Shown in pieces: positions 2,224 to 23,551 of a stretch of 64,000 nucleotides of DNA (position 1 is its first letter; the number at the start of each line of letters is the position of its first letter). The notes below the pieces were generated by a model that searched no databases, was not told the origin of the DNA, and saw nothing but the letters and a program-made list of their open reading frames with translations. This DNA is from Chthoniobacterales bacterium. GTDB taxonomy: Bacteria > Verrucomicrobiota > Verrucomicrobiia > Chthoniobacterales > JACTMZ01. Location: the NCBI GenBank assembly GCA_021463515.1, contig JAJTYZ010000112.1, positions 54,891-118,890 of the forward strand, given 5' to 3'. The position numbers were made by a program, and so were the translations under genes.

Positions 2224-2450
2224 AATTAAAGGCTTTCTTGGACAACGTAGGCGACTTAATTCCTTCGGTACACTTGACCACCCAAGGATCGAAATCGCTA
2301 AACTTCGCGCAGAAATAAAGCACCGATCGGGGAGCTGTATAAAAGTAATCTTCCTGCTCTCGCCGGAAAGGAGACCCGTGCTATCTCCTACGCAGCCAAT
2401 ACTCCTATCTCATTTATTTCTGAACCGGAGTGGGCGAGATTATTATGCCC
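2222..2450 (+). pseudogene. Possible frameshifted remnant of a VirE_N/BT4734-like primase-associated domain
   Basis: Successive frames give FLDNVGDLIPSVHLTTQ / DHPRIEIAKLRAEIKHRSG / GELYKSNLPALAGKETRAISYAANTPISF, resembling the order of motifs in VirE_N-like domains; no intact ORF. Confidence 0.25.
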
Positions 2451-4380
2451 GGCGACGGCGGAAGAGGAAAATGCCCAAGGTTCCACCAAGGGCGAGCAGG
2501 GCGACGGTGCCCGGCTCGGGAATGGCGACGGTATCGAGCCAGACGCGATTGGAATCGTAATTGATTTGAAATGTGTTGCCGCTCAGCACGAAGGTATTTG
2601 TAGGAGAAAATGCCCCGCTGTTGACCGTTGCAAAGGTGCCGCTCAGAGTTCCGTTTGTGTAAGTGAGCAAATCAATGTCTTCACCAAGCGTAGGCGAATA
2701 TCCAAGCGTCAGCTTAAGGTCTCCGTTCAACGTGACAATCGTTCCTGAGTACCCATTGGTGTTCACTACCGATAAGGCATCAAAGGAGCCTCCGGCGAGA
2801 TGCATCTGGTAGGTGGAACCTGCATCAAGGGTCAAAGTTCCTTCAATTTTGAGGGCATTCGTCGTGGAATGGCTGGCATCTAGGGTGCCTCCAGCCTGAA
2901 CCGTGACCGGAGTGTACATCGTGCCTATGTTGACGTTACCACCACTCCATTGAATCCCCCCGCCAACTTCGCCGCTTCCGGAAAGGGTGGCCCCATCGCG
3001 GACATAGAGAGATTGTATCTCCTTTAATTTTCCATCGAGTTTAAACGATCCGCCTTGAATATCCGTCTTCCCGGCAAAATTCGTTGCACTCCCTGTCCAA
3101 ACGGCAGCACCAGGCCCCGTTTTGATAACGCCATAATACCGATAAGTTCCACCGGAAGAACCTCTGTTGCCAGTAAATGTCAAGGTGCCATCGGTGGAAT
3201 ACTGATGGATGTAGATTCCGTTATTTCCAAAACTATCAACGCCAACGGTATAGTCACCAACGCCTTCTTCCATTAGAAAGTAGGCACTGTTTATACTATT
3301 CGTACCTCCAGACAGTGTTCCAGCACCCTGAATTGTCAGGGATTGGGCCGAGACCGCAGCCGTAAGGGCCTGACTTCCGGAAATATAGTAATTTGTATTG
3401 GCGTTGCCTCCCGAAGTCGGAAGAGAGTTTGTCGGAACATTACGAGTGACCAGACCTGTGCCCGTATCGCGTGCTGCAAATCCTGTTTTGGTTCCGTCTG
3501 TGACAGTGACTCTTCCCGAAAAACTCGTCGTAAGAAACGAATTCCCGACACCGGTCATTACATTGTTAAGCTTTAACGCACTATTCGCAGCAGAAAGATC
3601 AATGTTTAATGTCTGAGAATAAAACCCTCCTGTTTGAATATTGGTAAAAACCAGCGTTGTTCCATCGCCTCCATTGGAATCTACCACAATGCGATTTTCA
3701 CCCGCATTATTACCCAAGTCAATTTCTCGCCCAACATTGATTGTGGTGGTTCCCGATGCGGCACCGCGGCCTTCAATCACGGCTCCGGAAGTTTGATTAA
3801 AGAGAATCTTGCCTGCGGTGAACGAAGCACCCGCCTCAAGCACAAGTCGGCCGCCGTTTATAGAAAATTGACCCGTAAAAGTATTGCTCCCCCCTAGGGT
3901 CAAAGTGCCTGCGCCAGCTTTGATCAAAGTTTTGGAGGTGGTCTCAGAAATATCTCCCAAGATGGCCAGTTCGCCCGCAACGACGGTGAACGTACTGTTA
4001 GCATTCAGCCTGATATTATTATGAATCTTCTGTACTCCGCTGCTGTAATTGGTGATATTAAGATTAAGATCAAATGAATTCCCCCACAGCTCAAAGTCGC
4101 TTGCATTAGCCGCAAAAGTCAGCGTTCTTACACTCGTCATCGTTGTATTGGTTGCATCCAACCCGATGGATCCGGCAAAGATCAAATCTTCATTGGTGTT
4201 CGCTGGTGCCGAGCCCCCCACCCAATTTGCACCCGTATTCCAGTTGCCATTGGCACCCCCACCATTCCATGTGTGCGTGGCCGCATGAGCTGAAGATAAG
4301 GCCATGGCAAGACTTACAGCGAGGGGTACGAAGCGAATAAAAGAGTGGAGCGAGTTTTCATGATTGGCAAATTTAAGCAC
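2443..4380 (-). CDS. Autotransporter-associated beta-strand repeat protein with PEP-CTERM sorting signal
   Basis: Signal peptide, WNGGGANGNWNTGANW start, GAGTLTLGGSNTFTG repeat motif, C-terminal IPEPGTVALLALGGTLGIFLFRRRRA. Confidence 0.9.
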   Translation of the reverse strand: MLKFANHENSLHSFIRFVPLAVSLAMALSSAHAATHTWNGGGANGNWNTGANWVGGSAPANTNEDLIFAGSIGLDATNTTMTSVRTLTFAANASDFELWGNSFDLNLNITNYSSGVQKIHNNIRLNANSTFTVVAGELAILGDISETTSKTLIKAGAGTLTLGGSNTFTGQFSINGGRLVLEAGASFTAGKILFNQTSGAVIEGRGAASGTTTINVGREIDLGNNAGENRIVVDSNGGDGTTLVFTNIQTGGFYSQTLNIDLSAANSALKLNNVMTGVGNSFLTTSFSGRVTVTDGTKTGFAARDTGTGLVTRNVPTNSLPTSGGNANTNYYISGSQALTAAVSAQSLTIQGAGTLSGGTNSINSAYFLMEEGVGDYTVGVDSFGNNGIYIHQYSTDGTLTFTGNRGSSGGTYRYYGVIKTGPGAAVWTGSATNFAGKTDIQGGSFKLDGKLKEIQSLYVRDGATLSGSGEVGGGIQWSGGNVNIGTMYTPVTVQAGGTLDASHSTTNALKIEGTLTLDAGSTYQMHLAGGSFDALSVVNTNGYSGTIVTLNGDLKLTLGYSPTLGEDIDLLTYTNGTLSGTFATVNSGAFSPTNTFVLSGNTFQINYDSNRVWLDTVAIPEPGTVALLALGGTLGIFLFRRRRA

Positions 4381-6507: not shown

Positions 6508-8667
6508 TTACCGCAATCCGCTTATGCTTGCCTCGAACATACGAAATTCCGCCGCCTGCAATTCTACACGTTCGCAACGGCCAAAGGCATGTAAAAAAAC
6601 GCTGTGTTGGCGAGCCGGATCAATATTGTAGAGGCAAATTTTTCCTGCTTCAGGAAAGTAGGAAACATTGAGGTATTCGCATTCCGTGCGGGGCTCATCA
6701 CCATCATCGGTGATCCACACCAGACCTCGTGCATTCTTCGCGATGTGGCGATAAAGCATACCCACAAGTCCCGGGGAGGTGCGTGTACTTCCCGGGCCAA
6801 AGTCCTGATCAAACGCACCTGGATAGGCCCAGGAATTAAGGAAGTAAACTGCACCCGCTCCAAGTTTGTGTCGCAATACCAAGGGATAGGCTTGCTCGTC
6901 ATCCACAGCAAGCACCTCGATGTCAGCATCTACAATTTCAATCTTTCCCATCGGCGTTGCCAGAATTCCAAATCGGCGCGGAAAGCGAAAACCAAGCTTT
7001 TCATTGTTATCGGGGGCCGTTGCCCAGTAAATACGCTCACCGCGTCCGAGCACTCTTACCCCGCACAGCTCCGAGAAATCCCCGCCATGAACGAGCTCTC
7101 CCACCTCGTAATTATTAAAATTGCGCGTCATGTTGGTGGAAAGCTGTGGGATTGAGATGAAAAGCACACCACCCTCTCGAACATATTCTGTGAGGATGGA
7201 GTACTGTCGCGGTGACGCTGTATTCCACCCCGCAAAAAGGAGTGCCTTGTAATTTGCATGGAGGAACTTCGCCTCGAGGCGATCCTGTGCAAATGAAACG
7301 ATGTCCACCTGCCCAAATGGAGTTCCAGAAAGAAAAGGATTTTCAAAGGGATCGATCACATTGGGTGTAGGATAAAAAACTCTTTTCACAATGTTCCATC
7401 CGCGCTCAGGAACGCCCTCGTACCATGCTGGGTTCTGATCCGCCAAAGTATAGGCACCGGCGATGGCATACTGCGGGCTGAAGCGGAAATTGCAAAGGTC
7501 GTAGTTGCCCTTGGCGATGGCGATCGTACTCTCCGGCTGTCCCTGCGGCGTACCGTTTGCTTTCACAAAATCGTAAAAGTCAGAAATTTCACGACGGTAG
7601 CGGCATGCAATCGGCGCGTTGTAATTAATCTTACCAAAGTGCCTCCGAGCGTCCTCGATGTAAGGAATGTATTGGATCGGCTTATGTCCACCCCAATCTG
7701 CCTCCCCCGGCGCAAGCGGCACTCGTGGAAGCGAATGCTTTGGGGAATCTTCGCACAATGAGGCTTCAACAAACCAGTTGCCGCTTTCGTTAAGAATGAT
7801 TTTGCAGCCACTCATATATTTCATATACATGGCGCCCCTCAACAAATGCCATTTGTGCTCACTGGCATTAGGTATCCAAGAATAGTGCTCATGCGCCAAG
7901 TGACTGCCCCATAACGGCAGGTTGTATTGACGATAAAGTCCGCGAGAAAGCGCGGAGGCAATGTTTAATGGTGAGAATGCGAAGTCCTCCAGCAATGGCA
8001 CATCTGTACCGGCGGCAATTTCATAATCGACGTAGAAATTACCACTCGTCGCATAGATGGGACCCCAACCTGCAGCACGACGAGCGTCCACATGCTCGCG
8101 CACTCGTTCCATAAGGTCATCCACAAAAGCCTTCAATGTGACCTTTTCTAGAGGATTCGAATCATCAAGTCGAAAGGTGTAGCGCTCGCCAAAATCATAC
8201 CCGAGATAAAACTTCCCGGAGTTCTGAAACTGCTTTGCCCACTCCGGATTAGCACTAACATAAATCAGCATAGTATAAATACCGCGTTGGGCCGCCTCAC
8301 GAATAAAGCGGAGAACACCGGCACCATTACGTTCAGGATGTGCCTTGATCACCTCACACTCGTGTGCTTTAAGGTTTGTCTGTTTCTCCCAATCTGGCTC
8401 TGGCACATGAACGCCGATTTCATCCAAAGCATACTGCCATTCGGCAATAGTCGCCGGTGAATAGCCACGCGCTGTACCCCACAGTTGCGCGACATTACCC
8501 TGATTATCCTCGATAATTTTTTCAATCATCTCCTGGGGTGTAAAACTCTGAGGCATCCACGATTGATGGCCGTGCAAGGTGCATAATAAATAGTCCTTAC
8601 TCATGGGATAAATACCACTTCCTAAGAGTAAACCACAGGGAGGCAGTTCGATTTTGAATTTATTCAT
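6508..8667 (-). CDS. Uncharacterised glycoside-hydrolase-like protein (TIM-barrel plus beta-galactosidase trimerisation-like region)
   Basis: 719 aa; (beta/alpha)-barrel-like pattern with HEHYSWIPN, NESGNWFVEASL; C-terminal YVREGGVLFISIPQLS and LGAGAVYFLNSW resemble glutamine amidotransferase-like trimerisation domains. Confidence 0.5.
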   Translation of the reverse strand: MNKFKIELPPCGLLLGSGIYPMSKDYLLCTLHGHQSWMPQSFTPQEMIEKIIEDNQGNVAQLWGTARGYSPATIAEWQYALDEIGVHVPEPDWEKQTNLKAHECEVIKAHPERNGAGVLRFIREAAQRGIYTMLIYVSANPEWAKQFQNSGKFYLGYDFGERYTFRLDDSNPLEKVTLKAFVDDLMERVREHVDARRAAGWGPIYATSGNFYVDYEIAAGTDVPLLEDFAFSPLNIASALSRGLYRQYNLPLWGSHLAHEHYSWIPNASEHKWHLLRGAMYMKYMSGCKIILNESGNWFVEASLCEDSPKHSLPRVPLAPGEADWGGHKPIQYIPYIEDARRHFGKINYNAPIACRYRREISDFYDFVKANGTPQGQPESTIAIAKGNYDLCNFRFSPQYAIAGAYTLADQNPAWYEGVPERGWNIVKRVFYPTPNVIDPFENPFLSGTPFGQVDIVSFAQDRLEAKFLHANYKALLFAGWNTASPRQYSILTEYVREGGVLFISIPQLSTNMTRNFNNYEVGELVHGGDFSELCGVRVLGRGERIYWATAPDNNEKLGFRFPRRFGILATPMGKIEIVDADIEVLAVDDEQAYPLVLRHKLGAGAVYFLNSWAYPGAFDQDFGPGSTRTSPGLVGMLYRHIAKNARGLVWITDDGDEPRTECEYLNVSYFPEAGKICLYNIDPARQHSVFLHAFGRCERVELQAAEFRMFEASISGLR

Positions 8668-8806: not shown

Positions 8807-10489
8807 TTATTTATCTGAAGGGACGACGATACCCCGAAGGATGATGTTTTGGCAAAAAATAAAGACAAGGAGAGTCGGAATAGCGGTTAACACGAGCGAA
8901 GCATAGACTACGGGCGAGTCAACCATGGAGCGAAGTTGGTAAATATAAACCATGATTGTCCACATTTTAGGATCAGGTGCTAAAATGAGGGCGTAAAAGA
9001 AAGTTCCATAGGCGGCCGTAAATGCGCCTAAAGCAATGACAGCTAATATCGGTTTAGAGAGATTCATTCCGATTTGCCAAAACATAGTCCACTCATTGGC
9101 ACCATCTAACTCGGCAGCCTCGTAAAGTTCTTTTGGAAGACTATCAAAAAAGCCTTTAAGAAGAAATATAGAAAACCCACTTGCCAGCCCGGGCAAAACT
9201 AATGCTCCAAAAGTATTGAGGAGATGAAATTCTTTAAGCTGTAAAAAAACAGGGATCATGGTTACTTCTGCTGGAAAGGCAATCGTCGCTAAACAAAACA
9301 AGAGAATGTGATAGGTTTGACGGAGTTTAAATCGGGAAAGAGCGTAAGCGGCGAGAGGATTCACCAGAAGAGCACCGCTCATGGTAAGGATAACGAGGAT
9401 GATAGTATTTGTTATAGCACGGCCATGAATAAGGATTTCGTCAAGTACTCGTTGATAGTTTAAAATGATAAATTGCCACTTCCAAAAAGATTGCTTTTGG
9501 GTGAAAGATTGCATATCCAAAGCTTGCTGTGGAATACGAACACCGGAAACACCATACTTAGTAGCAACCCAATCTTCGTATTGAACGTCAAGGCTCTGAA
9601 CGCTTAAATGTTCAGGGAGAGCTTGTGTACGTATAAACTCATTCCGATCAATTCCCGCTACATTTTGAGCCACTTTTCCAGGTTCTGTCAGTTCAACAAA
9701 CTCTGGAGAAAGGATGTTCTGAACAAAGGTTAGCCAATCTCTGGGCGTTACTTTAGAAACAACCCGCGTAAAGGGTATTTCTGTATATGAAGTATAGGCC
9801 GTCCCGTGCTTCTTATTAAAGTTTTGGATATCATCACCGTAGAGAGATGGCAAATAGACACCACGGTAATATCCACCCACGTTCCAAGGCACTAGAAACT
9901 CGTTTCCTAGTGTCGTAGAAAACTCAAAAAGCTGTTCCAACATAGGGGTCGTAGGCCATGCTGCACCGATGATATTGAGAAATGGTGGTTCGATGTTGTT
10001 TTGGTTTGAAAATTGAGTTCTAAGCTGCTGATTGAGATTTTCGAGGGTATGAAATTTCTTCATCAACCAAAGGCGAAATTCCCGCCCAGTATAGGAAGGC
10101 ATGCGTGAAGATCGAAGAAACGCAAGTTGAAAATATTTTATAGGAGGTTGTGTCTCCTTGAGAAATTTCTCCCATTGCCTAATAGATTCAGAGTTTACCT
10201 TCAGAATTTGTACATTACGAAAATTCGTATTAGAATCTCCCCAAGAGGAACGCAGATTATCAGTCCTTCCTTGATACTTTGCCGTCAAATATCGCCGCCA
10301 CATTTCCTGACGATTGAAAAAATAGCTAGGAAATAAAGATCCACTCGCCTGTGTATCTACTTCCACTGAGCCGGTAATCATAATCATAAAAGGAATCACC
10401 ATGCTCATACCACCAAAGATCAACAGAGCGTAAAGAAACAGATAGAGCGAGCGAACTCTCCAAGAACGTTGTGAGATGGGTGAGAACAT
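8807..10489 (-). CDS. MalG-like carbohydrate ABC transporter permease with a ~300-aa insertion after TM1
   Basis: EAA loop ELYEAAELDGANEWTMFWQIGMNLSKPIL; FPAEVTMIPVFLQLKEFHLLNT; ATG at 10489 lies 8 bp after the upstream stop (ORF track extends to 10558). Confidence 0.85.
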   Translation of the reverse strand: MFSPISQRSWRVRSLYLFLYALLIFGGMSMVIPFMIMITGSVEVDTQASGSLFPSYFFNRQEMWRRYLTAKYQGRTDNLRSSWGDSNTNFRNVQILKVNSESIRQWEKFLKETQPPIKYFQLAFLRSSRMPSYTGREFRLWLMKKFHTLENLNQQLRTQFSNQNNIEPPFLNIIGAAWPTTPMLEQLFEFSTTLGNEFLVPWNVGGYYRGVYLPSLYGDDIQNFNKKHGTAYTSYTEIPFTRVVSKVTPRDWLTFVQNILSPEFVELTEPGKVAQNVAGIDRNEFIRTQALPEHLSVQSLDVQYEDWVATKYGVSGVRIPQQALDMQSFTQKQSFWKWQFIILNYQRVLDEILIHGRAITNTIILVILTMSGALLVNPLAAYALSRFKLRQTYHILLFCLATIAFPAEVTMIPVFLQLKEFHLLNTFGALVLPGLASGFSIFLLKGFFDSLPKELYEAAELDGANEWTMFWQIGMNLSKPILAVIALGAFTAAYGTFFYALILAPDPKMWTIMVYIYQLRSMVDSPVVYASLVLTAIPTLLVFIFCQNIILRGIVVPSDK

Positions 10490-10496
10490 GAGAAGC

Positions 10497-12914
10497 TTAT
10501 TTCGCGGCTTTAAACTCCATTTGACTAAGGCGTTTGAGCTGGAGAACGGTAAAACCAATTAAAATGCTACCAAGAATCCAAGCCATCGCTGTCGCGGGGC
10601 CAAAGCGCAAACGGGCAAAAGATTCATAGAAAATTTTTAAGGATATAACTTCAGTGATGCCATTGGGGCCACCTCCCGTCATAATGAGAATATTCGTGGC
10701 ACCGTGAAAGGCAGCACCTACCGCTCCTACAAAATTAATAAAAATGAGAGCCCGTAACCCCGGGTAAACAATCCCACTTGTTTTCTGTAAAAAACTCGCA
10801 CCGTCAATTTCTGCCGCCTCAAATTGTTCTTCCGGAATTGTTTTGAGTGCCGCAAGATAAATCAAACACCCGGGGCCGGCTCCAGCCCAAATTCCGGGGA
10901 GCACGCACGATAACATCGCGAGATAAGGGTCTTCGGTCCAAGCCCGTCGCGCCTCAAAACCTAAAATGCGCAAGCTTTCATTTAATGGTCCATTAACGCC
11001 AAAGAGTTCCCTCCAAAGAAAAAATACCGCTGCAGCACTCATTACTGCTGGCAAGTAATAGACGGTGCGGTAAAAAATTTTATACTTGGGGATAAGATGG
11101 AGGGCATAAGCTAGAAGAATCGGTGCCACGAATCCCAGTGTTAAGGCGTAGGTGGCAAAGTGCAATGTTGCTAAAAGCGCATTCCAGAAACGAATATCAA
11201 ATAGTGCATTGGCGAAATTGTCGAGACCTACAAAAGTAGATTTAAGGATAAGTTGGTAATCTAAAAAGGCAATGACCGTTCCTCGTGCAAGAGGAATGTA
11301 GCTCCAAATCAAGATCAATACACAAGCTGGAAGCAAACAAAGCCAAGGGATAAGGCTGCGACTATTCACTGGACGTGAAGCCTTTTCGGCATTACGCATG
11401 AAAATTCGCATAACATACCAAGTTACCAAGATAAAGATCGCAATAATGGTGCTTACAACGACCAAGGCAACAAGACGCCTTATTTGCATTTGCTCCGGCG
11501 AAACGTAGCCGATCATTCGTTCATTTGTCTCCTCTACGGCATGGTTGAGAATAGCCTGAATTTGGTCAAAAACAGATTGCGAGTCGCCTTGCTCCCATGC
11601 CGTATGGATCGAGGGACTAAGCAATATCTTATCAAGGGGATAATTCATCTCGATATACACCAAATTACAATTTTTACCGTACGGTTCGGGCTTACCATGC
11701 TCTAAGGCTTCGGCAAGCTCTTTCTCCAACCCGGGCGGTGAGAGCACAAGGTATTGATTAAATCCATATTGCCTTAAATCAAGGGGATTTACATTGCTTG
11801 CCTGCCCAAATTCAACCATCGTTTCGACTTGGATTCGCTTGGCTTCTGGCCCTGTCATAAACTCCACATAACGCCAAGCCGCTTCGCGTACGCGAGGATC
11901 TTTGATGCCGGAATAAACACCTAAAATGCTTGCGTTGACTTCCGAGCCACGAAGTCCGGAAGGCCCCGCTGGAATAGCACCAAAAGCAAAGGTTTCCGGA
12001 TTCCATGTCATGATGTCGCCTATATAAGAGAAAAACATACCAACACGTTCTCGCTCTTGTGGAGTGAGTGCACTAGATGATCTCCGTGCGATGCGCTCTA
12101 CCTCAACCAATCTATAATAGAAGGTAAAAGCTTCCACGGCTTGAGGGGTATTAAAAGCAGCCCGCCATTCATTTGGTGCAATCTCTTGCACTGCATCACC
12201 TCCAGCGGACCAAAGAAAGTTCATGAGGTTCCAACTGGATGCCTGACCACCAGAAAGGGATAAGCCAGTGTACTCCGGTCCGAGTTCGCTAATTTTGCGG
12301 GCAAATTGCACCAGCTCCTCCCAATCTTTTGGTGCCCTAGCGGGAAGACCTGCTCGGCGAAACAACTCTCTATTATAATAAAGGCCAATTACCTGAAGGG
12401 GATTAGGAAGACCAAATAGATGTCTTGTACCTGCCGCCAACGGACGATTCACGACGTCTCGAATCTGGGGGGGGATGCGGTCTAAAACATTGACTCCATT
12501 GGCCTTCGCCTGCTCTACATATTCGTCCAAGGGCGCTACCATGCCTTGACTTACGAAGGTATCTATACTCCGAAAATTCATAGCAAGTACATCCGGAGCA
12601 ATGTCACCGGCAACCATCATGATAGTCGTCACTTCACTTGCCATTGATTCAATATTGATACCCGTTGCAGACTGAAGTGTGATATGTGGATTAAGTTGCT
12701 TAAATCGTTCAAATATGCGTTGTCGAGCAATGGATTGCGGTGCAGTTGAACCGCCGTCTGGAACACTAGGGACTCGGAGTACAATCCTTTCTTCTCCAGA
12801 ACTCGCATGTCCCACAGAGAGAGAAAATATGCTCATCCATACGCTCAAGGAGAGATTCAATAGGCGAAGACAACGAAAGGGGAGGTTCACAGGTAATTCG
12901 GAGATGATGCGCAA
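10497..12914 (-). CDS. Fusion: extracellular solute-binding protein (family 1-like) + MalF-like ABC permease
   Basis: N-terminal signal peptide and SBP domain (GDIAPDVLAMNFRSIDTFVSQGMVAPLDEY, GLYYNRELFRRAGLPARAPKDWEELVQFARK); extra TM ~490; C-terminal permease with EAA loop EQFEAAEIDGASFLQKTSGIVYPGL. Confidence 0.9.
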   Translation of the reverse strand: MRIISELPVNLPFRCLRLLNLSLSVWMSIFSLSVGHASSGEERIVLRVPSVPDGGSTAPQSIARQRIFERFKQLNPHITLQSATGINIESMASEVTTIMMVAGDIAPDVLAMNFRSIDTFVSQGMVAPLDEYVEQAKANGVNVLDRIPPQIRDVVNRPLAAGTRHLFGLPNPLQVIGLYYNRELFRRAGLPARAPKDWEELVQFARKISELGPEYTGLSLSGGQASSWNLMNFLWSAGGDAVQEIAPNEWRAAFNTPQAVEAFTFYYRLVEVERIARRSSSALTPQERERVGMFFSYIGDIMTWNPETFAFGAIPAGPSGLRGSEVNASILGVYSGIKDPRVREAAWRYVEFMTGPEAKRIQVETMVEFGQASNVNPLDLRQYGFNQYLVLSPPGLEKELAEALEHGKPEPYGKNCNLVYIEMNYPLDKILLSPSIHTAWEQGDSQSVFDQIQAILNHAVEETNERMIGYVSPEQMQIRRLVALVVVSTIIAIFILVTWYVMRIFMRNAEKASRPVNSRSLIPWLCLLPACVLILIWSYIPLARGTVIAFLDYQLILKSTFVGLDNFANALFDIRFWNALLATLHFATYALTLGFVAPILLAYALHLIPKYKIFYRTVYYLPAVMSAAAVFFLWRELFGVNGPLNESLRILGFEARRAWTEDPYLAMLSCVLPGIWAGAGPGCLIYLAALKTIPEEQFEAAEIDGASFLQKTSGIVYPGLRALIFINFVGAVGAAFHGATNILIMTGGGPNGITEVISLKIFYESFARLRFGPATAMAWILGSILIGFTVLQLKRLSQMEFKAAK

Positions 12915-12938: not shown

Positions 12939-15900
12939 TCAATTTGCTTTCGAAGCCTCATAAATGCCCCCTGCGTCTTTAAACCGAAGGACAGGTTCGA
13001 CCGTCGCAAAATCTACAAGATGTAAGGGCTTGCGATTCATTTCCACAATGAGAGCGCGGAGTTTTATAGGATATTGAATTTTTTTATCACCACCGCTAGA
13101 GACCCATTGCTCCGAAACGGCACCCGGGCTTTGATCCACGTAAAGAGATGATTTGCGCAGAGGAACCGAGATAAAATTCCACCCGTCAAAATTTGCTGAG
13201 AGGTGCCCGGGCCAATCCAGAATATCCACACCCCAGCCACCCGTTCCGAGAGAACGCCAGATTTCACCTTGGGCATCTTCGATCTCAAACATCACACGTC
13301 CCCAGTTAGAGTTTCCCTTGAGCCAGACGCCAAGAGCGGCGGGCTCGTCGCTGATGGACGCCGGGGTATTAAGGCGAATGGTGGTGTATTCCGTGATATA
13401 CTTATTGAGATTCGGTGTTTTAGAGGTGTTCAGGCGCAGTTCCAGAGCGTTGCCCTTTTCGTCGTCGGTCACCTGCTGCAAGCTAAAATCGCCGAGTTGT
13501 CGGATTGGCAATTGCATAGGGTAAACCTGCGGTGTATCCAAACTATTGTCCTTATCCAGTGTCACATTTTGGATATTATCCAAAGGTGCAGCAGCTTTGG
13601 CAAGTGCTGCGCGCGCAGCATCTTCCGGAAAAGTCCGATTGGTCAGCGTCACGGATGAGAAAGGCTTGTTCGTTACCAAATACACGGGGCGCGTTCCCGC
13701 ATGTACGGTAATTTTGTTATCTTCGGGTTTAAGCTCCTGAGATTTTCCGTACATCTCGATCTTAGTTACAGGTGTGCTTCCATCCGTGGTAAGGGTGAAG
13801 TCCGCATCGCCCCGCACGGCCCACAGAGCCGTGACAAATTTCTTGTCCGCACGCTCGAATTCCACCGCATAAACCGTGGGTGATCCGGTGTCCAACTGCC
13901 GCTTAAATGTTGCTCGATCCAGAACATTGGTCAGCGTCGCATAGGCGACGTACGCCGGTTTAGGATAGCCATAGGGCATACGCTCCAAGATGCCGCTGGC
14001 ACCCCAGAAGATGTTGTAGTAAGCATTGGTAGTGTCGAACAAAACGCCCGGGCTGATGGTGGTGAAATTATTTGCAAGGCTGATGAGTACATCGCGAGTG
14101 TACCATTCGGCTTGCTTTTCTAATCCCATGTCGCGCTCGGCACGGTAGGTGAACTCATAAGATCCTGTTGCAGGAATGTCCCGCCCTGAGAGTGCCTTGG
14201 CGGTATCCATAGCAATGTGCATGCCCTGCAAGGCCCATTCTTGCAGCCTTTCTGGTGGAAAGACCTGCGTCGGTGATTCGATGCCGATAAAATCAATGTA
14301 GTCGGGGTTGCCACCACGGCGCAAAATGGCTGCAATATTAGATGCAGAGGCACTGTTGTTTCCAACTACCGTTTTGAGCTGTGGGAAATTTTCACGCAAG
14401 AACGCACCCGTCATATTCAGTTGGTCTGCATAACGTTGTTGAAGCGTAACCTGATTTGGTGTCCACTCCGGCTTCAGCCCAAGCACTTCGGGCGGCACAT
14501 CATTGCCAGGACCGCTTTCGTGAAAAATGAGAACCTCCTTCACATGCGGATGTGTTTGGAGAATTGCTTCCATCTGCGACTTGACGCGTTCCATGGCTGC
14601 TTCGGGTTTTTTAAGATCAGCTTCTTGAAAGAGAGAGCGGATTTGCGGGATGGTAATCATCCATGGAGCCATTTCCTCCTCGGAGTGTTTCTGCCATCCG
14701 GCCTTGCGGATACCAGCCTTAAACATGATTGGACCAGCAAAGTTTATGTCTGTAGGTGTACCGTGAGTTCCATCAAACCACCATGTCGAATAGGGAGATT
14801 CGTATTTTGCAGTTCGGGTATCCTTTCCAAGCAGCGCAAAACTTGCGGGATGCGTGAGCAAGGTGTTTCCGGAGGAATCTTCCACCGAGAGAATCAGCTT
14901 GTACCAGCCTACATTTGGCATCTTCAGCGATAAGAGCATTTCTTTTTTTTCACCGGCCTTGCTGAAGGCATAATCTTCGGACCCGCTTTTTACTTTCTGT
15001 CCGTCCACATCGTAAATGTTCCATGCCAACTTGCCACGGGAAGACGCGAATGATGTCAGTATTACGGTAGTTTCCGGCTTTTCACTGTCTGCAAAAACAT
15101 TCCCGGGTTGCGCTTGAGTAATCTTCATGCCTACGGGAGACTTTTCCAATGTCACTCCAAAAATTTGCACGGCACTGGTAGATCGTGGGTCGGGCTGGGT
15201 GGATTTGTCCAACTGCTCTAGATTCTCATCGGGCTTCCCAAAGAGATCAAAATTCATCGTTACATTGTCATATTGATCGAGAATTTCGCCGCTTTTGAGC
15301 GGAATTTTTGCAAGGTACAAGGGAAGTGCTTTTTTCCCGGCGTCAAGAGTGACTGTCCCCACCTGCGTGATATTGTTCGACAACTTTTCGTCACCTCGTG
15401 GAATGGTGATCGTGGTATCGGCCATCAAATTGCGACCAATGCCATTCTTGGAATAATGCGTAATCCGCGCTGTAAGAATGGGGTCTTTTGCTGGATCAGG
15501 ATCTATGGCAAATAGAACCCAAGCATCGGAGTATGGTACTCCGCCTGGAACGATAAAATGTACTTCGGTCAGCAAACCATCGAAGGGTGAACGTGCCGTG
15601 TATTCGTCCACTTCCAAGGCCCAGTTTCCCTGCCCAGCTCGCGTCAATCCGATATCAGCACTCCCTGAACCAGATGCCACCACCATAGGGATGCCTTGAA
15701 CTTCCGAGAAACCTGGCTTCATCGAAAGCGTTGTTTCGGCAAATGATTTTGCCATATTCAGAGCCGTCACATCCAAGGGCTCAAAACGTACGGAATTATA
15801 TTTAGTGTTTAGCGAAAACGTTTTACCGATTGACGTGGATGGAGAGGCGGTAAAAGTTACGTTTTTAACATCTGCACCCTCTAATGTTCCGGTGTAACTA

Positions 15901-17036
15901 CCATCGAGGTAGAGGGCAACACCCGTAGCTGTCGGAGATAACGTCACTTTTAATGGATGCGCAGAAGCCTTAGTAAGCAGCCCCCAATCCCGTACGATGT
16001 CATGATATGTATCGGTAAAACTATAACTCGTGCGGTAGCGACGCAGGCGGGGACGAATGTAGTAGTTGAGCTTTGATTGTTTCTCTCCAAGGCCGTTCAC
16101 TTGAATGATGGAATCAGAACGGTCAAGCTTACTCGTTGCGTCATCGGCTTTTTTGATTTCGCGCTCATCGGGTGCCTCTACGGAGGTAAAAGTTATCTCT
16201 TTGTTCTGACCATTATTCCAGTTCACAGTCAACTTGACGCCTTCCGCATCCGTGCCGGTACGGATAGTTGCTCCAAACAAATCATTGGCAGCTACGGTTT
16301 GCGTTGCGCCTCGTTTGAAGGCAGCTTCCTCTACTTTCCGCAGCGTTGGTAAAATGGCCTCGATCGAGCGATCCGGCAGTGGCGCAGGGCTGCGCAGAAG
16401 GATATCCGTGAGTTTAAAGGGGCTTTTAGCAAAGCCCTGAAAATTAATTCCAACACCAGCGGCATTAGAAATTTTTGCCTCGGCCACCTGCTTCATTGCC
16501 CGGTCATTATCTATAAAGACCGTCATGGTTTTGCCTCGCACGGTGATGGCGGCCGTGTGCCATTCTTTAGCGGCAATTTCGAAGGGCAGCTTTGTAACGT
16601 TCCCCGCAATAGTCACGGCATCCGACGCAAAGCCAATTGGCGTCACCGTGTTTTTGGCGTCGCGTAATTGAATTTCAAAATGAGCTAACTTGTCGCCCTC
16701 TCCTGCACCCAAAAGGAAGTCAAATAGCACATCGTAATTTGTGAGATTTTCTGCCCCATCTTTTGGCAAAAAGTGAGTGAACACTAACCTCGTTTTTTCC
16801 AAGTTCACACTCAAATCAGCACGACCCGAATAAACCGGTTCGTTTTCGACGGTAAGGCCGGGGAGATTTGCGCTGTCAGGGGACTTGACGCCATAATTAC
16901 GAAAAGTTTCGTGCCAATAAATACGAGGGCGCTCTGAGTTTTTCTCGCTTTCCCGAGCTAGTGCAGATTGAAGAGGGACAAAACTTGCAAGGGCGGCAGT
17001 GTACAAAAGTGTGACGGAAAGGGATGTAAAATTCAT
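12939..17036 (-). CDS. Giant secreted protein, putative glycoside hydrolase (1365 aa)
   Basis: Signal peptide; N-terminal LamG-like region; barrel-like C-terminal region with VLIFHESGPGND, DYIDFIGIESPTQ, GLEKQAEWYTRDVLISLANNF; paralogous to 19925-23551. Confidence 0.6.
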   Translation of the reverse strand: MNFTSLSVTLLYTAALASFVPLQSALARESEKNSERPRIYWHETFRNYGVKSPDSANLPGLTVENEPVYSGRADLSVNLEKTRLVFTHFLPKDGAENLTNYDVLFDFLLGAGEGDKLAHFEIQLRDAKNTVTPIGFASDAVTIAGNVTKLPFEIAAKEWHTAAITVRGKTMTVFIDNDRAMKQVAEAKISNAAGVGINFQGFAKSPFKLTDILLRSPAPLPDRSIEAILPTLRKVEEAAFKRGATQTVAANDLFGATIRTGTDAEGVKLTVNWNNGQNKEITFTSVEAPDEREIKKADDATSKLDRSDSIIQVNGLGEKQSKLNYYIRPRLRRYRTSYSFTDTYHDIVRDWGLLTKASAHPLKVTLSPTATGVALYLDGSYTGTLEGADVKNVTFTASPSTSIGKTFSLNTKYNSVRFEPLDVTALNMAKSFAETTLSMKPGFSEVQGIPMVVASGSGSADIGLTRAGQGNWALEVDEYTARSPFDGLLTEVHFIVPGGVPYSDAWVLFAIDPDPAKDPILTARITHYSKNGIGRNLMADTTITIPRGDEKLSNNITQVGTVTLDAGKKALPLYLAKIPLKSGEILDQYDNVTMNFDLFGKPDENLEQLDKSTQPDPRSTSAVQIFGVTLEKSPVGMKITQAQPGNVFADSEKPETTVILTSFASSRGKLAWNIYDVDGQKVKSGSEDYAFSKAGEKKEMLLSLKMPNVGWYKLILSVEDSSGNTLLTHPASFALLGKDTRTAKYESPYSTWWFDGTHGTPTDINFAGPIMFKAGIRKAGWQKHSEEEMAPWMITIPQIRSLFQEADLKKPEAAMERVKSQMEAILQTHPHVKEVLIFHESGPGNDVPPEVLGLKPEWTPNQVTLQQRYADQLNMTGAFLRENFPQLKTVVGNNSASASNIAAILRRGGNPDYIDFIGIESPTQVFPPERLQEWALQGMHIAMDTAKALSGRDIPATGSYEFTYRAERDMGLEKQAEWYTRDVLISLANNFTTISPGVLFDTTNAYYNIFWGASGILERMPYGYPKPAYVAYATLTNVLDRATFKRQLDTGSPTVYAVEFERADKKFVTALWAVRGDADFTLTTDGSTPVTKIEMYGKSQELKPEDNKITVHAGTRPVYLVTNKPFSSVTLTNRTFPEDAARAALAKAAAPLDNIQNVTLDKDNSLDTPQVYPMQLPIRQLGDFSLQQVTDDEKGNALELRLNTSKTPNLNKYITEYTTIRLNTPASISDEPAALGVWLKGNSNWGRVMFEIEDAQGEIWRSLGTGGWGVDILDWPGHLSANFDGWNFISVPLRKSSLYVDQSPGAVSEQWVSSGGDKKIQYPIKLRALIVEMNRKPLHLVDFATVEPVLRFKDAGGIYEASKAN

Positions 17037-17130
17037 TCTTTAATAAGCGGCATTTCTTTCAAAAAAAGCAAAAGGGTCAAGCTTAAATTACCTCAATCGA
17101 GCTTAAACTGCATTGCGCTGTTATTAAAAA

Positions 17131-17149
17131 TGCAGTTGACATGTCTGCA
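17131..17149. promoter_or_regulatory. Candidate operator (inverted repeat TGCAG-N9-CTGCA) in the divergent promoter region
   Basis: tgcagttgacatgtctgca between divergent giant-protein and LacI genes. Confidence 0.35.
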
Positions 17150-17172
17150 CGTGCTTGCAAGGTTTAGGAGCG

Positions 17173-18309
17173 ATGCAAAGTGATTCGAAAATTGCCACCC
17201 AGAAGTCTATCGCTTTATTATGTGGCGTATCACGGGCTACGGTGGGGATTATACTGGCTGGCGGGGCTTTGGCATCACGCTATCGTAAGGAGACGCGAGA
17301 GCTTGTTTTGCAAACGGCGGCTCGCCTGAATTATTGCCATCATCGGGCTGCGGCTGCGATGCGCAGACAGCGGAGTAATTTGATTGCCATTGTGCATTAT
17401 GGCGCGGAGATTGAGTCGGCTCGTAAGTCCAACCTTGCCCTTGCGCATGAAGTGGGTGTGGCTGGGTATGACTATTTATCCGTAGATATGGACTGGTATG
17501 GAGGCAGCGTAGAGCGAACAGTCAGGGAGCTCATTCAGGCACGTGTGGAGGGGGTTGCCATTTCTCATATTCAAGAAGTTTTTGAAGATGTGCATCTCGC
17601 GAGGTTGTTGCAAGCCGGGATTCCTGTGGTTTCGATCAATGGAAATGAGCGTGCAGGAGTGCCTTTGTTTTGCGATCATGTAAGCAAGGCATTTTATGAT
17701 TTGACAACGCATTTGATCCGCCTTGGGCATCGGCATATCGTTCAGCTTCTCCCATTCGTTGATTTGAATAATCCTTCCGTCCATCGTCCTTGGCGTGAAA
17801 GGAAGGAGGGCTTTCGCGCCGCTTTTGCAAAACAAGGAACATGGCAGGAAGCTCAATCTGAGGAGTATTCCATGGATTTATTTTCCAGCACGGCACCTAT
17901 CGGCGTTTCTGTTTATCACTCCCCTCAGCATTATAAACGCCTCGAAAGGTCGAATTATCATCTTTGTAAGCTCCTCTTTGAGGGCAAGAGATGGCCGGAT
18001 GCCATTGTTTGCAGCAATGATGCGTATGCAATTGAGGTCATGATGGCGGCAATGGAGATGGGTGTTCGGGTGCCGGAGGATGTTGCCGTCACTGGTTATG
18101 ATAATGATACGCTGGGAAGTTTTCCCGTTTTGGGGCTGACGACGGCGGAGCAGGATATTGAAAGTATTTGTCGAGAGGGGATTCGTAATTTATTAGCGAG
18201 GCACGAGTCCACCGATGCCGCTATAGTCGTCAAGAAGTTTGATTCCACTCTCATTTACCGTACGTCCTGCGGCAGAGGATTAAATGCAAATGGGAGGTCT
18301 ATTGTATGA
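17173..18309 (+). CDS. LacI-family transcriptional regulator
   Basis: N-terminal HTH QKSIALLCGVSRATVGIILAGG, periplasmic-binding-like domain, AVTGYDNDTLGSFPVLGLTTAEQD; ATG 17173 with upstream AGGAG. Confidence 0.85.
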   Translation: MQSDSKIATQKSIALLCGVSRATVGIILAGGALASRYRKETRELVLQTAARLNYCHHRAAAAMRRQRSNLIAIVHYGAEIESARKSNLALAHEVGVAGYDYLSVDMDWYGGSVERTVRELIQARVEGVAISHIQEVFEDVHLARLLQAGIPVVSINGNERAGVPLFCDHVSKAFYDLTTHLIRLGHRHIVQLLPFVDLNNPSVHRPWRERKEGFRAAFAKQGTWQEAQSEEYSMDLFSSTAPIGVSVYHSPQHYKRLERSNYHLCKLLFEGKRWPDAIVCSNDAYAIEVMMAAMEMGVRVPEDVAVTGYDNDTLGSFPVLGLTTAEQDIESICREGIRNLLARHESTDAAIVVKKFDSTLIYRTSCGRGLNANGRSIV

Positions 18310-19037
18310 AAATTTTTTCAGTTGTTTGTGTGGGAATGGCACTAACTTCCCTACCCGCGCTGTGCGCGACACCGGCTTGGCAGACCGTATTTTCCGTGCC
18401 ACCTTATCAATTGGATGAGACAGTTGTGGATCGTGAGGGTTGGAAAAAGGTGTCATCGGGAAATCCTGATAAGGCTCTGGTTCGCCCGAATCCAGGCGAT
18501 GCCAGTAAGACAGGGCTGCAACTCCAAATGTATGGCATCCAGCATGATTTTGATGAGCGGTTGGTTGGTTCTGTTAACATCACCGCAGTGGTGGCGTTTG
18601 GTCAGATTCCCTTACGGGGGTCAACAGGAACCTTGACCTTTATGCCAGTTTTCAACAAAGGTCATCTTGGGTATGCCCCATTTGGCTATTCGGATAAGGA
18701 AGCTACTGATGATATGGAGGGTGGTGGAATTTTTTATGAGTTTAGCGAAATAAATGACGAGGGAGTACAGAAATCTAAACGGATCATTCTAGTACCACGG
18801 GCTGATATTAATCCTGAAACAAAATATACTTTATCTATGAATCTCAATCTCGATGCTCAGGTCTATGAAATAAGTGTGACCAGTGCAGATAACTCCTTTC
18901 AGGCGAAGTCTGGTGAAATTATGATGACCAACGGAGATCGGCGATTTGCAATGTTTTTGGATGGAATTCGAATTGCTTCATCTCTGATTAATACGGAGCT
19001 TTACATCGAATCCCTTACATTTTCTGTTAACGACTGA
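18306..19037 (+). CDS. Secreted protein of unknown function (243 aa)
   Basis: Signal peptide; ATGA overlap with LacI gene stop. Confidence 0.75.
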   Translation: MKIFSVVCVGMALTSLPALCATPAWQTVFSVPPYQLDETVVDREGWKKVSSGNPDKALVRPNPGDASKTGLQLQMYGIQHDFDERLVGSVNITAVVAFGQIPLRGSTGTLTFMPVFNKGHLGYAPFGYSDKEATDDMEGGGIFYEFSEINDEGVQKSKRIILVPRADINPETKYTLSMNLNLDAQVYEISVTSADNSFQAKSGEIMMTNGDRRFAMFLDGIRIASSLINTELYIESLTFSVND

Positions 19038-19038
19038 T

Positions 19039-19923
19039 ATGCAATTAAAGTCTCTCACAGTTGCAAAGGGAGAAGAAAGTGCATTTACACTTTTGGAATT
19101 GATGGTTGTTGTAACTATTCTAACGCTACTCGCACTTTTATTGTTTCCGTCATTTAAGTTCTTGATAGAAAAAACTCAAGGTGCCGCGTGTGCAGGAAAT
19201 ATGAAGGCATTGGCGGCGGCTTTGTTTAGCTATCAGGCAGATCATAATGGTTGGTTTCCCCCAGGATATCCAGTGTCTAGCAGCTCAATTAGTGCAGCAA
19301 ACCAGCAACCGGGCATGCCGTCGCAACCCGGATTAAGCGAACTGCACTTTAAACCTTATTTGGTGCCAAGCTACCTAAAGGAAATGCCTGTCTGCCCGGG
19401 GAATAACATGACCGCTGCTGCAAAGAAAATATCTCCCAATTGGCGGAAACGTCTTAGTGATATGGGAGGTGGCTATGCAATCAATGCTTTTTATGTGCAG
19501 TGGAAACCTGTTGCGTTTCCTCCCAGAACGTGGACGTGGAATTCGACCTCACCTTATATAGCATCACAAACAGTATTTCTAACGGAAAATCTAGGGTATG
19601 CCAATGCTACATGGAGCACGGAACACTTGGATCAGGCACTTGACGCACAATCTTTGGTGGGCATCACAGGGCGCAGTCACGGGTCAGGAGGGGCACTCAA
19701 CTTTATGTTCTATGACGGCCACATTGAGGTTATCGCCCGCAACGCGCCAGAAGGCACGCCACCTGCTAAATTACAAAGTGGTCAGATGTGGATGAGATCG
19801 AATAACCCTCGAGGAAAATTCAGTTCTACAGGATCCAATGATACAATCAGAACGGTCGGTTATTTCGATCAGAACGAATTTAAAAAATACTATCCTCAAT
19901 TTTTTCCACCCGATAACCCCTAA
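19039..19923 (+). CDS. Prepilin-type N-terminal cleavage/methylation domain protein (type II pseudopilin-like)
   Basis: AFTLLELMVVVTILTLLALLLFPSF; H-X9-DG motif HGSGGALNFMFYDG. Confidence 0.9.
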   Translation: MQLKSLTVAKGEESAFTLLELMVVVTILTLLALLLFPSFKFLIEKTQGAACAGNMKALAAALFSYQADHNGWFPPGYPVSSSSISAANQQPGMPSQPGLSELHFKPYLVPSYLKEMPVCPGNNMTAAAKKISPNWRKRLSDMGGGYAINAFYVQWKPVAFPPRTWTWNSTSPYIASQTVFLTENLGYANATWSTEHLDQALDAQSLVGITGRSHGSGGALNFMFYDGHIEVIARNAPEGTPPAKLQSGQMWMRSNNPRGKFSSTGSNDTIRTVGYFDQNEFKKYYPQFFPPDNP

Positions 19924-19924
19924 A

Positions 19925-22900
19925 ATGCTCTCACCCAAATTTATTTTAATGCTAGGTTTATCGCTTGGTGCGATTCCCTCTCTCTCTGATGCCTTGGCCG
20001 TTTCGCTACCACCGGGAACAGAGATTGAAGGATCGTATAAGGAAGTCGAAGGTTCATTGGTGGCATTGCCTCCAGATTCAAATTACCCTGTGGCCGGTTC
20101 AAATTACCCTGTGACATTAAGCGGAGAGATTTCCCCGAACACACCTATTTTTGTCTTAAAGGGACGCCTAGGCACCGAACCTCGTGGTATTGTGATTGAG
20201 CTACAAGACGAGGAGGGTAAGTTTATTCCGATAGCAACGACTCTACTACCTTTCAGATTATATCCTTTGGATATTAAGTCGAATGGGAAGGTTTTCCCAC
20301 GGCATGCTATTGGTATATCTGGAGGAGAATTTTTTGTGCGCCCTAATCCGCGCCTTCTTCATCCCAAAATGTCCGAGGTAAGAAAAAAGGAATGGGAAGC
20401 TCTTCCCGATGCTGGGGAACACACTTTTACGTTTGAGGTGCGGCCAATTGATGGAGATCAGGTAGAAGTTTGGATGGATGGGTATTTTTTACGCCATTAT
20501 GATTGGCCGAAGCAAGCCGTGAAATTTAAGGTGAAATTGCCGCCCGGAGCTGCTGTGGAAAGCCTTCGACTGGAAGAACAACGCTCATCAGATTCGTTGT
20601 TGTGGCCTTGGCAACCATTGACATCCGCCGAGAAAAGGGTGGAGGGCGAAATCAAATTTTTCGATCTCAAAACTGTACCACAAGGGTTTCAATCCCTAAA
20701 CCAAACGCGGGTTTCCGGGCTTTCTCTTGAAAAGATGGGACAGGTGCGCGGAGCTATGTATGATGATCTACAAAGCTACTTTTGGCGCCGTAATGTATCC
20801 AATCGGCTCGAGGGAGAAAAACTTTTTAGTGTCCCTTTAGCCACATATTCTCAAGCGAAGGTACTCTGTGCCATCGACCCAGATAACACAAATCCTCCTT
20901 CTTTCACCATGCGTGTGACGCGCTATGGGAGAAGTCGTGGCAACGCAATGGCAGATAGTATTGTTACGGTTCCCTTGAATGATGCAAAGGATTCAACTCA
21001 TGCCGTGCAAGTAGGGACCGTCACGCTTACTCCCGGGGGGAAAGTCTTACCACTTTGGCTTGTTACAGTACCCATTAAAAACGGCTTGATACAGGATATT
21101 TTACAGGAGGATACCTTGGGGAATCGAAACTTTTCCAATGAATATAAGTATCTTGATATTGAACTCATGGAGCCTTTAGAGAAGGTGGAGGAGGCGGATG
21201 CGTTCCCCCCCCCCATGGGAATAATCCAACGATCCTGGCAACCGACCCCCTACGATTATAAAGGTTCGGATTACTTTCGATCCATGCCTCGGGCTGTAAG
21301 TAGTTCGGCACTTATATTCGGTGTACTCCTAGAAAAAAGTCCTGCCTCTCTCGTGATTCGAGCAAACACGGGACTTCAAGTTTTTTATCCAAGTGATAAT
21401 CCCGAGTGGCTTGCAACCGTAAAGGCGGATAAAGCCGCAGAATATACGTTAGACTGGGACTTTAGTGATGTAACAGGAAAAATCGTAACTTCGGGAAAGC
21501 AGGTGTTGACCCTCGCGGCGGGTGCAGAAGAAACCATAAAAGTTCCTATCAAGGAAGGTGTGGGTTGGTATGCAGTACGTTTTCGCTTGCGGCATAACAA
21601 GGAAGAATTGGTAGATTCGCGCACCTCTTTCGTCATGTTGCCGCCGGACACACGAAAGGCGGGACTGGAGTCGCCCTATTACGGATGGTGGTTTCAAAAG
21701 AATCAGCTGAGCGATGTTAAACTCTCCGAAGCTGGCCCGTTGCTGCAGCGATTGGGAATACGTCGTGCGGGTTTAGCGGATGACATGCCGGAGAATGAGA
21801 GCCTCAAATATGGTATTACGGGTTCTACGATTGAATGGGGGGCTGGGAGAAAGGCACTGGAGATGTATCAGAGTGGTAAAAAGCCTCTCCCCGAGGTGAT
21901 TAATTTTTTAGAGGAAGCAATTCGTGAAGACCTTAAAAAATGGCCATCGATAGATCGGATGAATGTCTTTCACGAAAGTGGAGGTAGCGGGGCTCCTTTT
22001 CCTGCGGAGATTTGGGGAGAATCGGCCCGTACGGTAGGACCTGGCTTTGAAGATGAAAACTCTCCCCAAGCACTCATGCAGCGTGAAGCCAATAATGCCA
22101 ATGAAAGTACAAAGTCGGTTAATACCATGGGGTGGTCGAAGTCGGAGCAGGAAGGTTGGAAAAAAACTTGGCCGGCTCGCATGCAGTATCTCGAAGCCAT
22201 GGCCAAAATGGTGCGAGAAAAATTTCCGCAATTGAAGCTGCAATATGGCAATGATGGCAACAGCTTAAGAATTGTAGGTGAAATTTTCCGGCAAAAATTT
22301 CCGCGCAAGTACATTGACACCATTGCTATTGAGGATTTGGGGCAGACGATAACACCGGAGAGCCCACGTATGGGAGCCATTCATTCCGCTTGGTTTCTAC
22401 GAGAGGTCGCCCGTCGCATGGGATATGGTGATATTCCTATCACGGCTACGACCGAGTGGATTGGGCGCATGACCGAGCGTTTGGGTCTGGAAACTCAAGC
22501 TGAATGGAAAGTACGCGATGCATTATTAGCTCTGGCCTACGGCATGGACACCATCAGCATTGGCGGTTTGAATGATGCCAGCAGCGGATATTATCAATCC
22601 ATCTGGGCCAATGGCGGCTTGTGTTTTCGCTACCCCACCATGGCACCGAAGCCGGCTTATCTGGCTGTCGCCATATTAACACAGGTCTTGGATCAGGCAA
22701 AGTTTCAGCGTTTCGTCCCCACCGGCTCGACGGTTCTTTATGTTCAGGAGTTTAAACACGGAGATGATTGGATTTATGCCATTTGGACTCCCAGAGGAAC
22801 GCGGCACACGACCTTAGAATTTCCCACAGATACCGAGCGAATGCTTACGGATTTGTATGGGAGGGAATCGAAGCTCCAAGGAAAAACCCTCGAGCTGACG

Positions 22901-23551
22901 GCTGGTACCGCAGTGCACTATCTAAGGTCGAAAGACCCCGTGAAAAATGTCGTGGCCGGTGTTGCAGCATTTCCGGAGGATCCAAGGCCACCTAAAGAGG
23001 TGGAGACAACGATTCCTTTGGAAAGTCTGTCGGAAATTTCCATTATTTCTAACAAAGGGCGTGAAAAAAAATACTTTCTCCGAGAAGGTGAGTTTGAATT
23101 ACGGGAGGTGGATGATTTGGAAATGGGGAAATGCCTTGAGCTGGAACTGAAGCCGAAAACCCCATTGAAATGGGATATGGAAGAGGAATATGCGTATTTA
23201 AAATTAACACATCCGGTAGCTACAACCGCGAAAAACGCGGGAATTTGGGTTAAAGGCAATGGAAGCTGGGGACAGGTAGATATTTGGAAGAGTCGTTCTT
23301 GGGGGCCTTGGGCGGACAATGGAAACCTACACTACAATTGGCCTGCACAAGGAAAGCTGAATTTTGATGGATGGAATTTTATCACCTTCCCCTATTACGA
23401 TTGGGTCAATGAAATACAGGAAGGCACTCCGGCTATGAAAAATACTGTCGAAGGCCTTTTCTTGACGATACCCCGTAAAACGATTGTCGGTGTAAAAACC
23501 GTCCCCGTGGAAAACCTCAAAATTCGCTTTAAGGGTATGACATTATTTTAG
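19925..23551 (+). CDS. Giant secreted protein, putative glycoside hydrolase (1237 aa), paralogue of 12939-17036
   Basis: Signal peptide from ATG 19925; MNVFHESGGSG, KYIDTIAIEDLGQ, GLETQAEWKVRDALLALAYGMDTISIGG align to the other giant protein. Confidence 0.6.
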   Translation: MLSPKFILMLGLSLGAIPSLSDALAVSLPPGTEIEGSYKEVEGSLVALPPDSNYPVAGSNYPVTLSGEISPNTPIFVLKGRLGTEPRGIVIELQDEEGKFIPIATTLLPFRLYPLDIKSNGKVFPRHAIGISGGEFFVRPNPRLLHPKMSEVRKKEWEALPDAGEHTFTFEVRPIDGDQVEVWMDGYFLRHYDWPKQAVKFKVKLPPGAAVESLRLEEQRSSDSLLWPWQPLTSAEKRVEGEIKFFDLKTVPQGFQSLNQTRVSGLSLEKMGQVRGAMYDDLQSYFWRRNVSNRLEGEKLFSVPLATYSQAKVLCAIDPDNTNPPSFTMRVTRYGRSRGNAMADSIVTVPLNDAKDSTHAVQVGTVTLTPGGKVLPLWLVTVPIKNGLIQDILQEDTLGNRNFSNEYKYLDIELMEPLEKVEEADAFPPPMGIIQRSWQPTPYDYKGSDYFRSMPRAVSSSALIFGVLLEKSPASLVIRANTGLQVFYPSDNPEWLATVKADKAAEYTLDWDFSDVTGKIVTSGKQVLTLAAGAEETIKVPIKEGVGWYAVRFRLRHNKEELVDSRTSFVMLPPDTRKAGLESPYYGWWFQKNQLSDVKLSEAGPLLQRLGIRRAGLADDMPENESLKYGITGSTIEWGAGRKALEMYQSGKKPLPEVINFLEEAIREDLKKWPSIDRMNVFHESGGSGAPFPAEIWGESARTVGPGFEDENSPQALMQREANNANESTKSVNTMGWSKSEQEGWKKTWPARMQYLEAMAKMVREKFPQLKLQYGNDGNSLRIVGEIFRQKFPRKYIDTIAIEDLGQTITPESPRMGAIHSAWFLREVARRMGYGDIPITATTEWIGRMTERLGLETQAEWKVRDALLALAYGMDTISIGGLNDASSGYYQSIWANGGLCFRYPTMAPKPAYLAVAILTQVLDQAKFQRFVPTGSTVLYVQEFKHGDDWIYAIWTPRGTRHTTLEFPTDTERMLTDLYGRESKLQGKTLELTAGTAVHYLRSKDPVKNVVAGVAAFPEDPRPPKEVETTIPLESLSEISIISNKGREKKYFLREGEFELREVDDLEMGKCLELELKPKTPLKWDMEEEYAYLKLTHPVATTAKNAGIWVKGNGSWGQVDIWKSRSWGPWADNGNLHYNWPAQGKLNFDGWNFITFPYYDWVNEIQEGTPAMKNTVEGLFLTIPRKTIVGVKTVPVENLKIRFKGMTLF

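Follow-up and report, generated by a model that had tools for sequence, protein, structure and literature searches.

Verrucomicrobiota degrade complex polysaccharides with the help of many proteins that carry no database name. The locus described here, which lies in a stretch of 64,000 nucleotides (the window), raises the question of what two giant proteins encoded on its opposite strands do, and whether they belong to a new kind of glycoside hydrolase, as an earlier note on this DNA had proposed. Both open reading frames were confirmed with the coordinates and lengths given there: the gene for protein A, delineated by its ORF, its homology to B and the family alignments A1 and A2, occupies 12939..17036 on the minus strand (1365 aa, predicted to be secreted, with a hydrophobic signal at the N-terminus), and the gene for protein B, an ORF call, occupies 19838..23551 on the plus strand (1237 aa as listed, likewise predicted to be secreted). 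Because the listed start of B lies inside the preceding pilin-like ORF, which ends at 19923 directly before Met30 of B, and because the alignment of a Terrimicrobiaceae relative (neighbourhood L006) to B begins only at about residue 33, the true start of B is probably Met30 at 19925, which gives a protein of 1208 aa; residues 30–54 then read as a predicted signal peptide. In a BLASTP comparison A and B form a single alignment of 925 columns with 31% identity (E 4e-107), covering residues 462–1292 of A and 295–1185 of B, or roughly two thirds of either protein. The proposed homology is thus borne out and extends past the C-terminal halves in which it had been noticed. The motifs quoted for it are present, except that one had been misquoted (B reads RLGLETQAEW, not MGLETQAEW).

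In single-sequence searches against Pfam, NCBIfam, PADLOC and the PDB neither protein gave a match above the curated cut-off, and literature searches returned no description of the family. LamG, GH59_C and 3-keto matches in the N-terminal part of A (E ~0.01–0.02) were set aside as too weak. A scan at the level of contigs found one relative only, and whole-genome searches, which were used instead, found relatives of A and B in several Verrucomicrobiota families. With a 34-sequence profile (E 1e-20 or better), family members were detected in 24 of 388 sampled genomes, all of them Verrucomicrobiota; this survey scored no more than two candidates in each genome, so that copy numbers are lower bounds. 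The genome from which the window derives (66% complete) holds three family copies, A and B included. In a maximum-likelihood tree, A falls into a clade of seven rows (support 100/99) together with sequences of other Verrucomicrobiota families, and B into another clade of seven rows (support 100/99), which holds sequences of the same order and the third copy of the same genome. Since they are placed in different clades, A and B are, judged by their sequences, old paralogues, and a recent duplication is not their origin. Outside the invariant residues, mean identity within the family is only ~29% (45-member alignment).

The two genes flank a single LacI-type regulator (17155..18309, plus strand, divergent from A; Pfam Peripla_BP_3, 3e-25), and the gene order LacI, hypothetical protein, pilin-like protein, B recurs in L006. 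The intergenic region between A and the regulator (17037..17154) contains the repeats TCAAGCTTAAA and TCGAGCTTAAA, with a spacing of 20 bp, along with an inverted pair formed by AACTGCATT and AATGCAGTT; together they make up a possible operator. Located 3' of A on the same strand are genes for a sugar-binding protein fused to an ABC permease (10497..12914, 805 aa; Pfam SBP_bac_1 1.4e-26 and BPD_transp_1 2.6e-10), a second ABC permease (8807..10558; BPD_transp_1 4e-12, residues 416–573 only), a 719-aa protein of no known family (6508..8667), an acetyl-xylan-esterase-like protein, and an autotransporter-type repeat protein with a PEP-CTERM sorting signal (2443..4380), which also adjoins giant genes in the neighbourhoods L128 and L129. 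The second permease carries an insert of ~320 aa, which follows the first hydrophobic segment, precedes the permease domain and has short motifs recalling GH42 enzymes (weak Pfam match, E 0.006); a 675-aa relative of this permease is found in L147. Across 20 neighbourhoods of family members, the recurring genes are those for the 719-aa partner, FAD-dependent oxidoreductases, the PEP-CTERM protein and the pilin-like protein; transporter genes recur in one of the 20. In L006 (14438–16597) a Gfo/Idh/MocA oxidoreductase fused to an aldo/keto reductase is encoded close 3' of the B relative, after an FAD oxidoreductase, which hints at redox processing of sugars.

The 719-aa protein is the conserved partner of the giants. 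Copies with 47–59% identity adjoin giant genes in L129, L134 and L137, which belong to distant genomes, and a fragment does so in L128. Of the 388 genomes, 11 encode full-length relatives (bits >600), and 10 of these 11 also carry the giant family (6% expected); a hypergeometric estimate, which ignores shared ancestry, puts this co-occurrence at 1e-12. The protein has no match in Pfam or the PDB and may be the more novel gene of the locus, and its function may reveal the substrate of the giants. We also considered it as a relative of the giant family itself and rejected this (E 0.84, 0.28 and 0.48). It is more conserved than the giants are. A second copy of its gene lies beside the third giant of the same genome (L128, contig C108, 1753–2988) and seems internally shortened, matches being found only to positions 5–77 and 444–519.

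What kind of protein are the giants? AlphaFold models built from the family alignments were obtained for A 618–1140 (pLDDT 92.8, pTM 0.92) and B 50–1237 (pLDDT 83.1, pTM 0.88), and both present a core in the order beta-sandwich, TIM barrel, beta-sandwich, with further beta domains on both sides. In A, the strands of the model place the first sandwich at about residues 635–737 (14826..15134, minus strand), followed by the barrel at about 738–1036 (13929..14825) and a second sandwich at about 1037–1127 (13656..13928), the latter also outlined by a profile match to residues 393–506 of the PDB entry 5jvk; in B, the barrel spans about residues 604–948 (21647..22681, plus strand). A C-terminal beta domain of A (12972..13544, minus strand), retained in the A1 consensus, is common to B, where the model is all-beta, and is possibly carbohydrate-binding. 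When the models were compared with the PDB by Foldseek, 5jvk, a GH39 enzyme, ranked first for both, with E 1.2e-21 and TM-scores of 0.62/0.66 for the A core and E 4.5e-18 for B; among the matches listed for the A core, the rest (mostly GH2) reached TM-scores of 0.42 at most. The guess of a clan-A-type barrel, made from the sequence alone, thereby finds support in the models.

The profiles point in the same direction. The family profile matched 5jvk with E 9.6e-8 and then 3.4e-9, and none of the Pfam, NCBIfam or other PDB families matched better than GH39. A direct comparison of the family with GH39 by hhalign is weak (E 1e-4, 57% probability) but agrees with this, and an unrelated local family gave E 0.48. 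Eight weaker relatives, most of which have canonical WNEP and TExG motifs, form a bridge group: its profile aligns with that of the family across the full core (E 2.2e-37) and with GH39 sequences (E 1.7e-24), and it matches 5jvk (2e-49), PslG (3e-31) and GH39 xylosidases (down to 7.5e-21). PF01229 found no match in A or B at E 1, in the 34 family members even at E 0.1, or in the genome itself at E 0.001. The barrel appears homologous to that of GH39, a link that leans on the bridge group. The family lies outside all Pfam and NCBIfam families, but its fold and its profiles connect it to GH39; it is a remote, unnamed branch of the GH39 superfamily rather than a wholly new kind, and the proposal of a new family is right only in part.

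Within this barrel, three Glu residues are invariant in 34/34 members, A-E840 (HES; 14517..14519, minus strand), A-E929 (PPE; 14250..14252) and A-E961 (YEF in A, TEW in B; 14154..14156), and all three, together with one Arg, are also invariant in the 45-member alignment, A2. According to DSSP assignments of both models, A-E840 and its aligned counterpart B-E713 (21974..21976, plus strand) follow strand 4, whereas A-E961 and its counterpart B-E873 (22454..22456) sit at strand 7; A-E929 lies just past strand 6. A-E840 aligns with the Glu of the GH39 WNEP motif and of the GH10 NEP motif, so that the HES Glu matches, as far as alignment can tell, the acid/base of these families, and its earlier nomination as one of two catalytic residues gains support. 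The second nomination, the IES/IED Glu (A-E920; 14277..14279, minus strand), is not supported: this strand-6 position is Glu in 33/45 and Asp in 12/45 members and His in 8/8 bridge proteins, and the known GH39 nucleophile, the Glu of TEW, aligns with A-E961/B-E873 in the direct comparison (E 1e-4). The Glu that ends strand 7 is therefore the most likely nucleophile; its column is off by one residue in the distant clade when the bridge group is included in the alignment, but invariant in the in-family alignments. The residue preceding the acid/base is His in 32/45 members and otherwise Ala, Pro, Gly or Trp, never the Asn that is usual in GH39. In A3, the set of GH39 sequences, the strand-6 His does not vary. 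The alignments thus indicate a barrel of the expected kind with an active site altered at two positions that are usually fixed in GH39.

From what was computed, namely the homology, the predicted fold, the link with GH39, the conservation of residues and the gene context, we consider it likely that A and B are secreted multidomain enzymes, most plausibly retaining glycoside hydrolases of a remote, GH39-like branch of clan GH-A, which would feed ABC uptake under LacI control; catalysis, retention of configuration, endo action and regulation are what we infer from these data. The GH39wh2-like core would be embedded in ~600–800 further residues of beta domains, probably glycan-binding. Acting outside the cell and probably in endo fashion, the enzymes would cut a polysaccharide, with the HES Glu (A-E840, B-E713) protonating the leaving group and the strand-7 Glu (A-E961, B-E873) attacking the sugar; the products would be imported by the neighbouring ABC transporter, with LacI in control. 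A and B are thus probably polysaccharide-cutting enzymes that current databases fail to recognise, and a family of very large secreted proteins is now placed on a known enzyme fold with candidate catalytic residues that can be tested.

With Asn replaced by His and other residues, and the strand-6 His by Glu or Asp, this site may have a function other than that of the GH39 site. It is conceivable, and we put it forward tentatively, that the giants make up a separate enzyme family, in which a rewired GH39-type site (Asn to His, strand-6 His to an acid, an extra invariant Glu) would act on a glycan, or by a reaction, beyond known GH39, in a two-enzyme pathway with the 719-aa family. The same two differing positions, along with the secretion and mostly beta structure of the giants, could also speak for a dead barrel, i.e. 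for carbohydrate-binding or structural proteins; yet the invariance of three Glu and one Arg, in a family that is otherwise ~29% identical, is hard to explain without catalysis, and we regard this reading as improbable. Still less probable is a different glycan reaction on the same fold (inverting, transglycosylating or phosphorolytic) by way of the strand-6 acid or the PPE Glu: the change from His to Glu/Asp, the invariance of A-E929, and the conserved partner and redox genes nearby would fit it, but the two residues that retaining hydrolysis calls for are there and do not vary, and retention and hydrolysis are the rule for most clan-A relatives. Finally, a wholly new family of glycoside hydrolases in which the HES Glu would pair with the IES/IED Glu for catalysis is very unlikely. 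The strand-6 position is acidic in 45/45 members, and Pfam and NCBIfam hold no matching family, but the residue is Asp in 12 of these members and His in all bridge proteins, A-E961 aligns with the known GH39 nucleophile, and fold and profiles lead back to GH39.

As probable retaining enzymes of a GH39-like branch, A and B can be compared with several known systems. Their nearest solved structure, by fold as well as by profile, is 5JVK (GH39wh2 of Bacteroides cellulosilyticus WH2), which is counted as GH39 and described as endo-acting with a large groove (PMC6933502). The sandwich-barrel-sandwich core is common to both; identity is 16%, and the giants (1150–1480 aa) are far larger than the 587-residue chain of 5jvk. 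Assuming that 5jvk shares the residues of the bridge group, A and B would further differ from it by HE in place of WNEP and, on strand 6, by an acidic residue instead of His. From GH39 beta-xylosidases and PF01229, whose Glu residues ending strands 4 and 7 align with A-E840 and A-E961, A and B are separated by an identity of only 12% and by their extra domains. The Glu of the GH39 WNEP motif is present throughout the family in the form of HES or of A/P/G/W-E, never N-E (45 members), and at the nucleophile position TEW is preserved in B and becomes YEF in A with the Glu invariant, whereas the GH39 strand-6 His is replaced by Glu or Asp in 45/45 members. PslG, a GH39-like endoglycosidase of Pseudomonas aeruginosa with a 416-residue chain, is tied to A and B via the bridge group only, the match of the family profile itself being weak (E 0.08). 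The GH10 xylanases 4PMY and 4PMX are matched by the family profile at 9e-5, with the NEP Glu aligned to the HES Glu, but this alignment is limited to the middle of the barrel and leaves out the sandwich domains. GH2 enzymes account for many of the Foldseek matches on the strength of their mixed sandwich and barrel architecture; an identity as GH2 was rejected on TM-scores (mostly <0.4), the rmsd was ~20 angstrom, and no relation in sequence was found. Among solved structures, GH39wh2 is the one that the giants resemble most.
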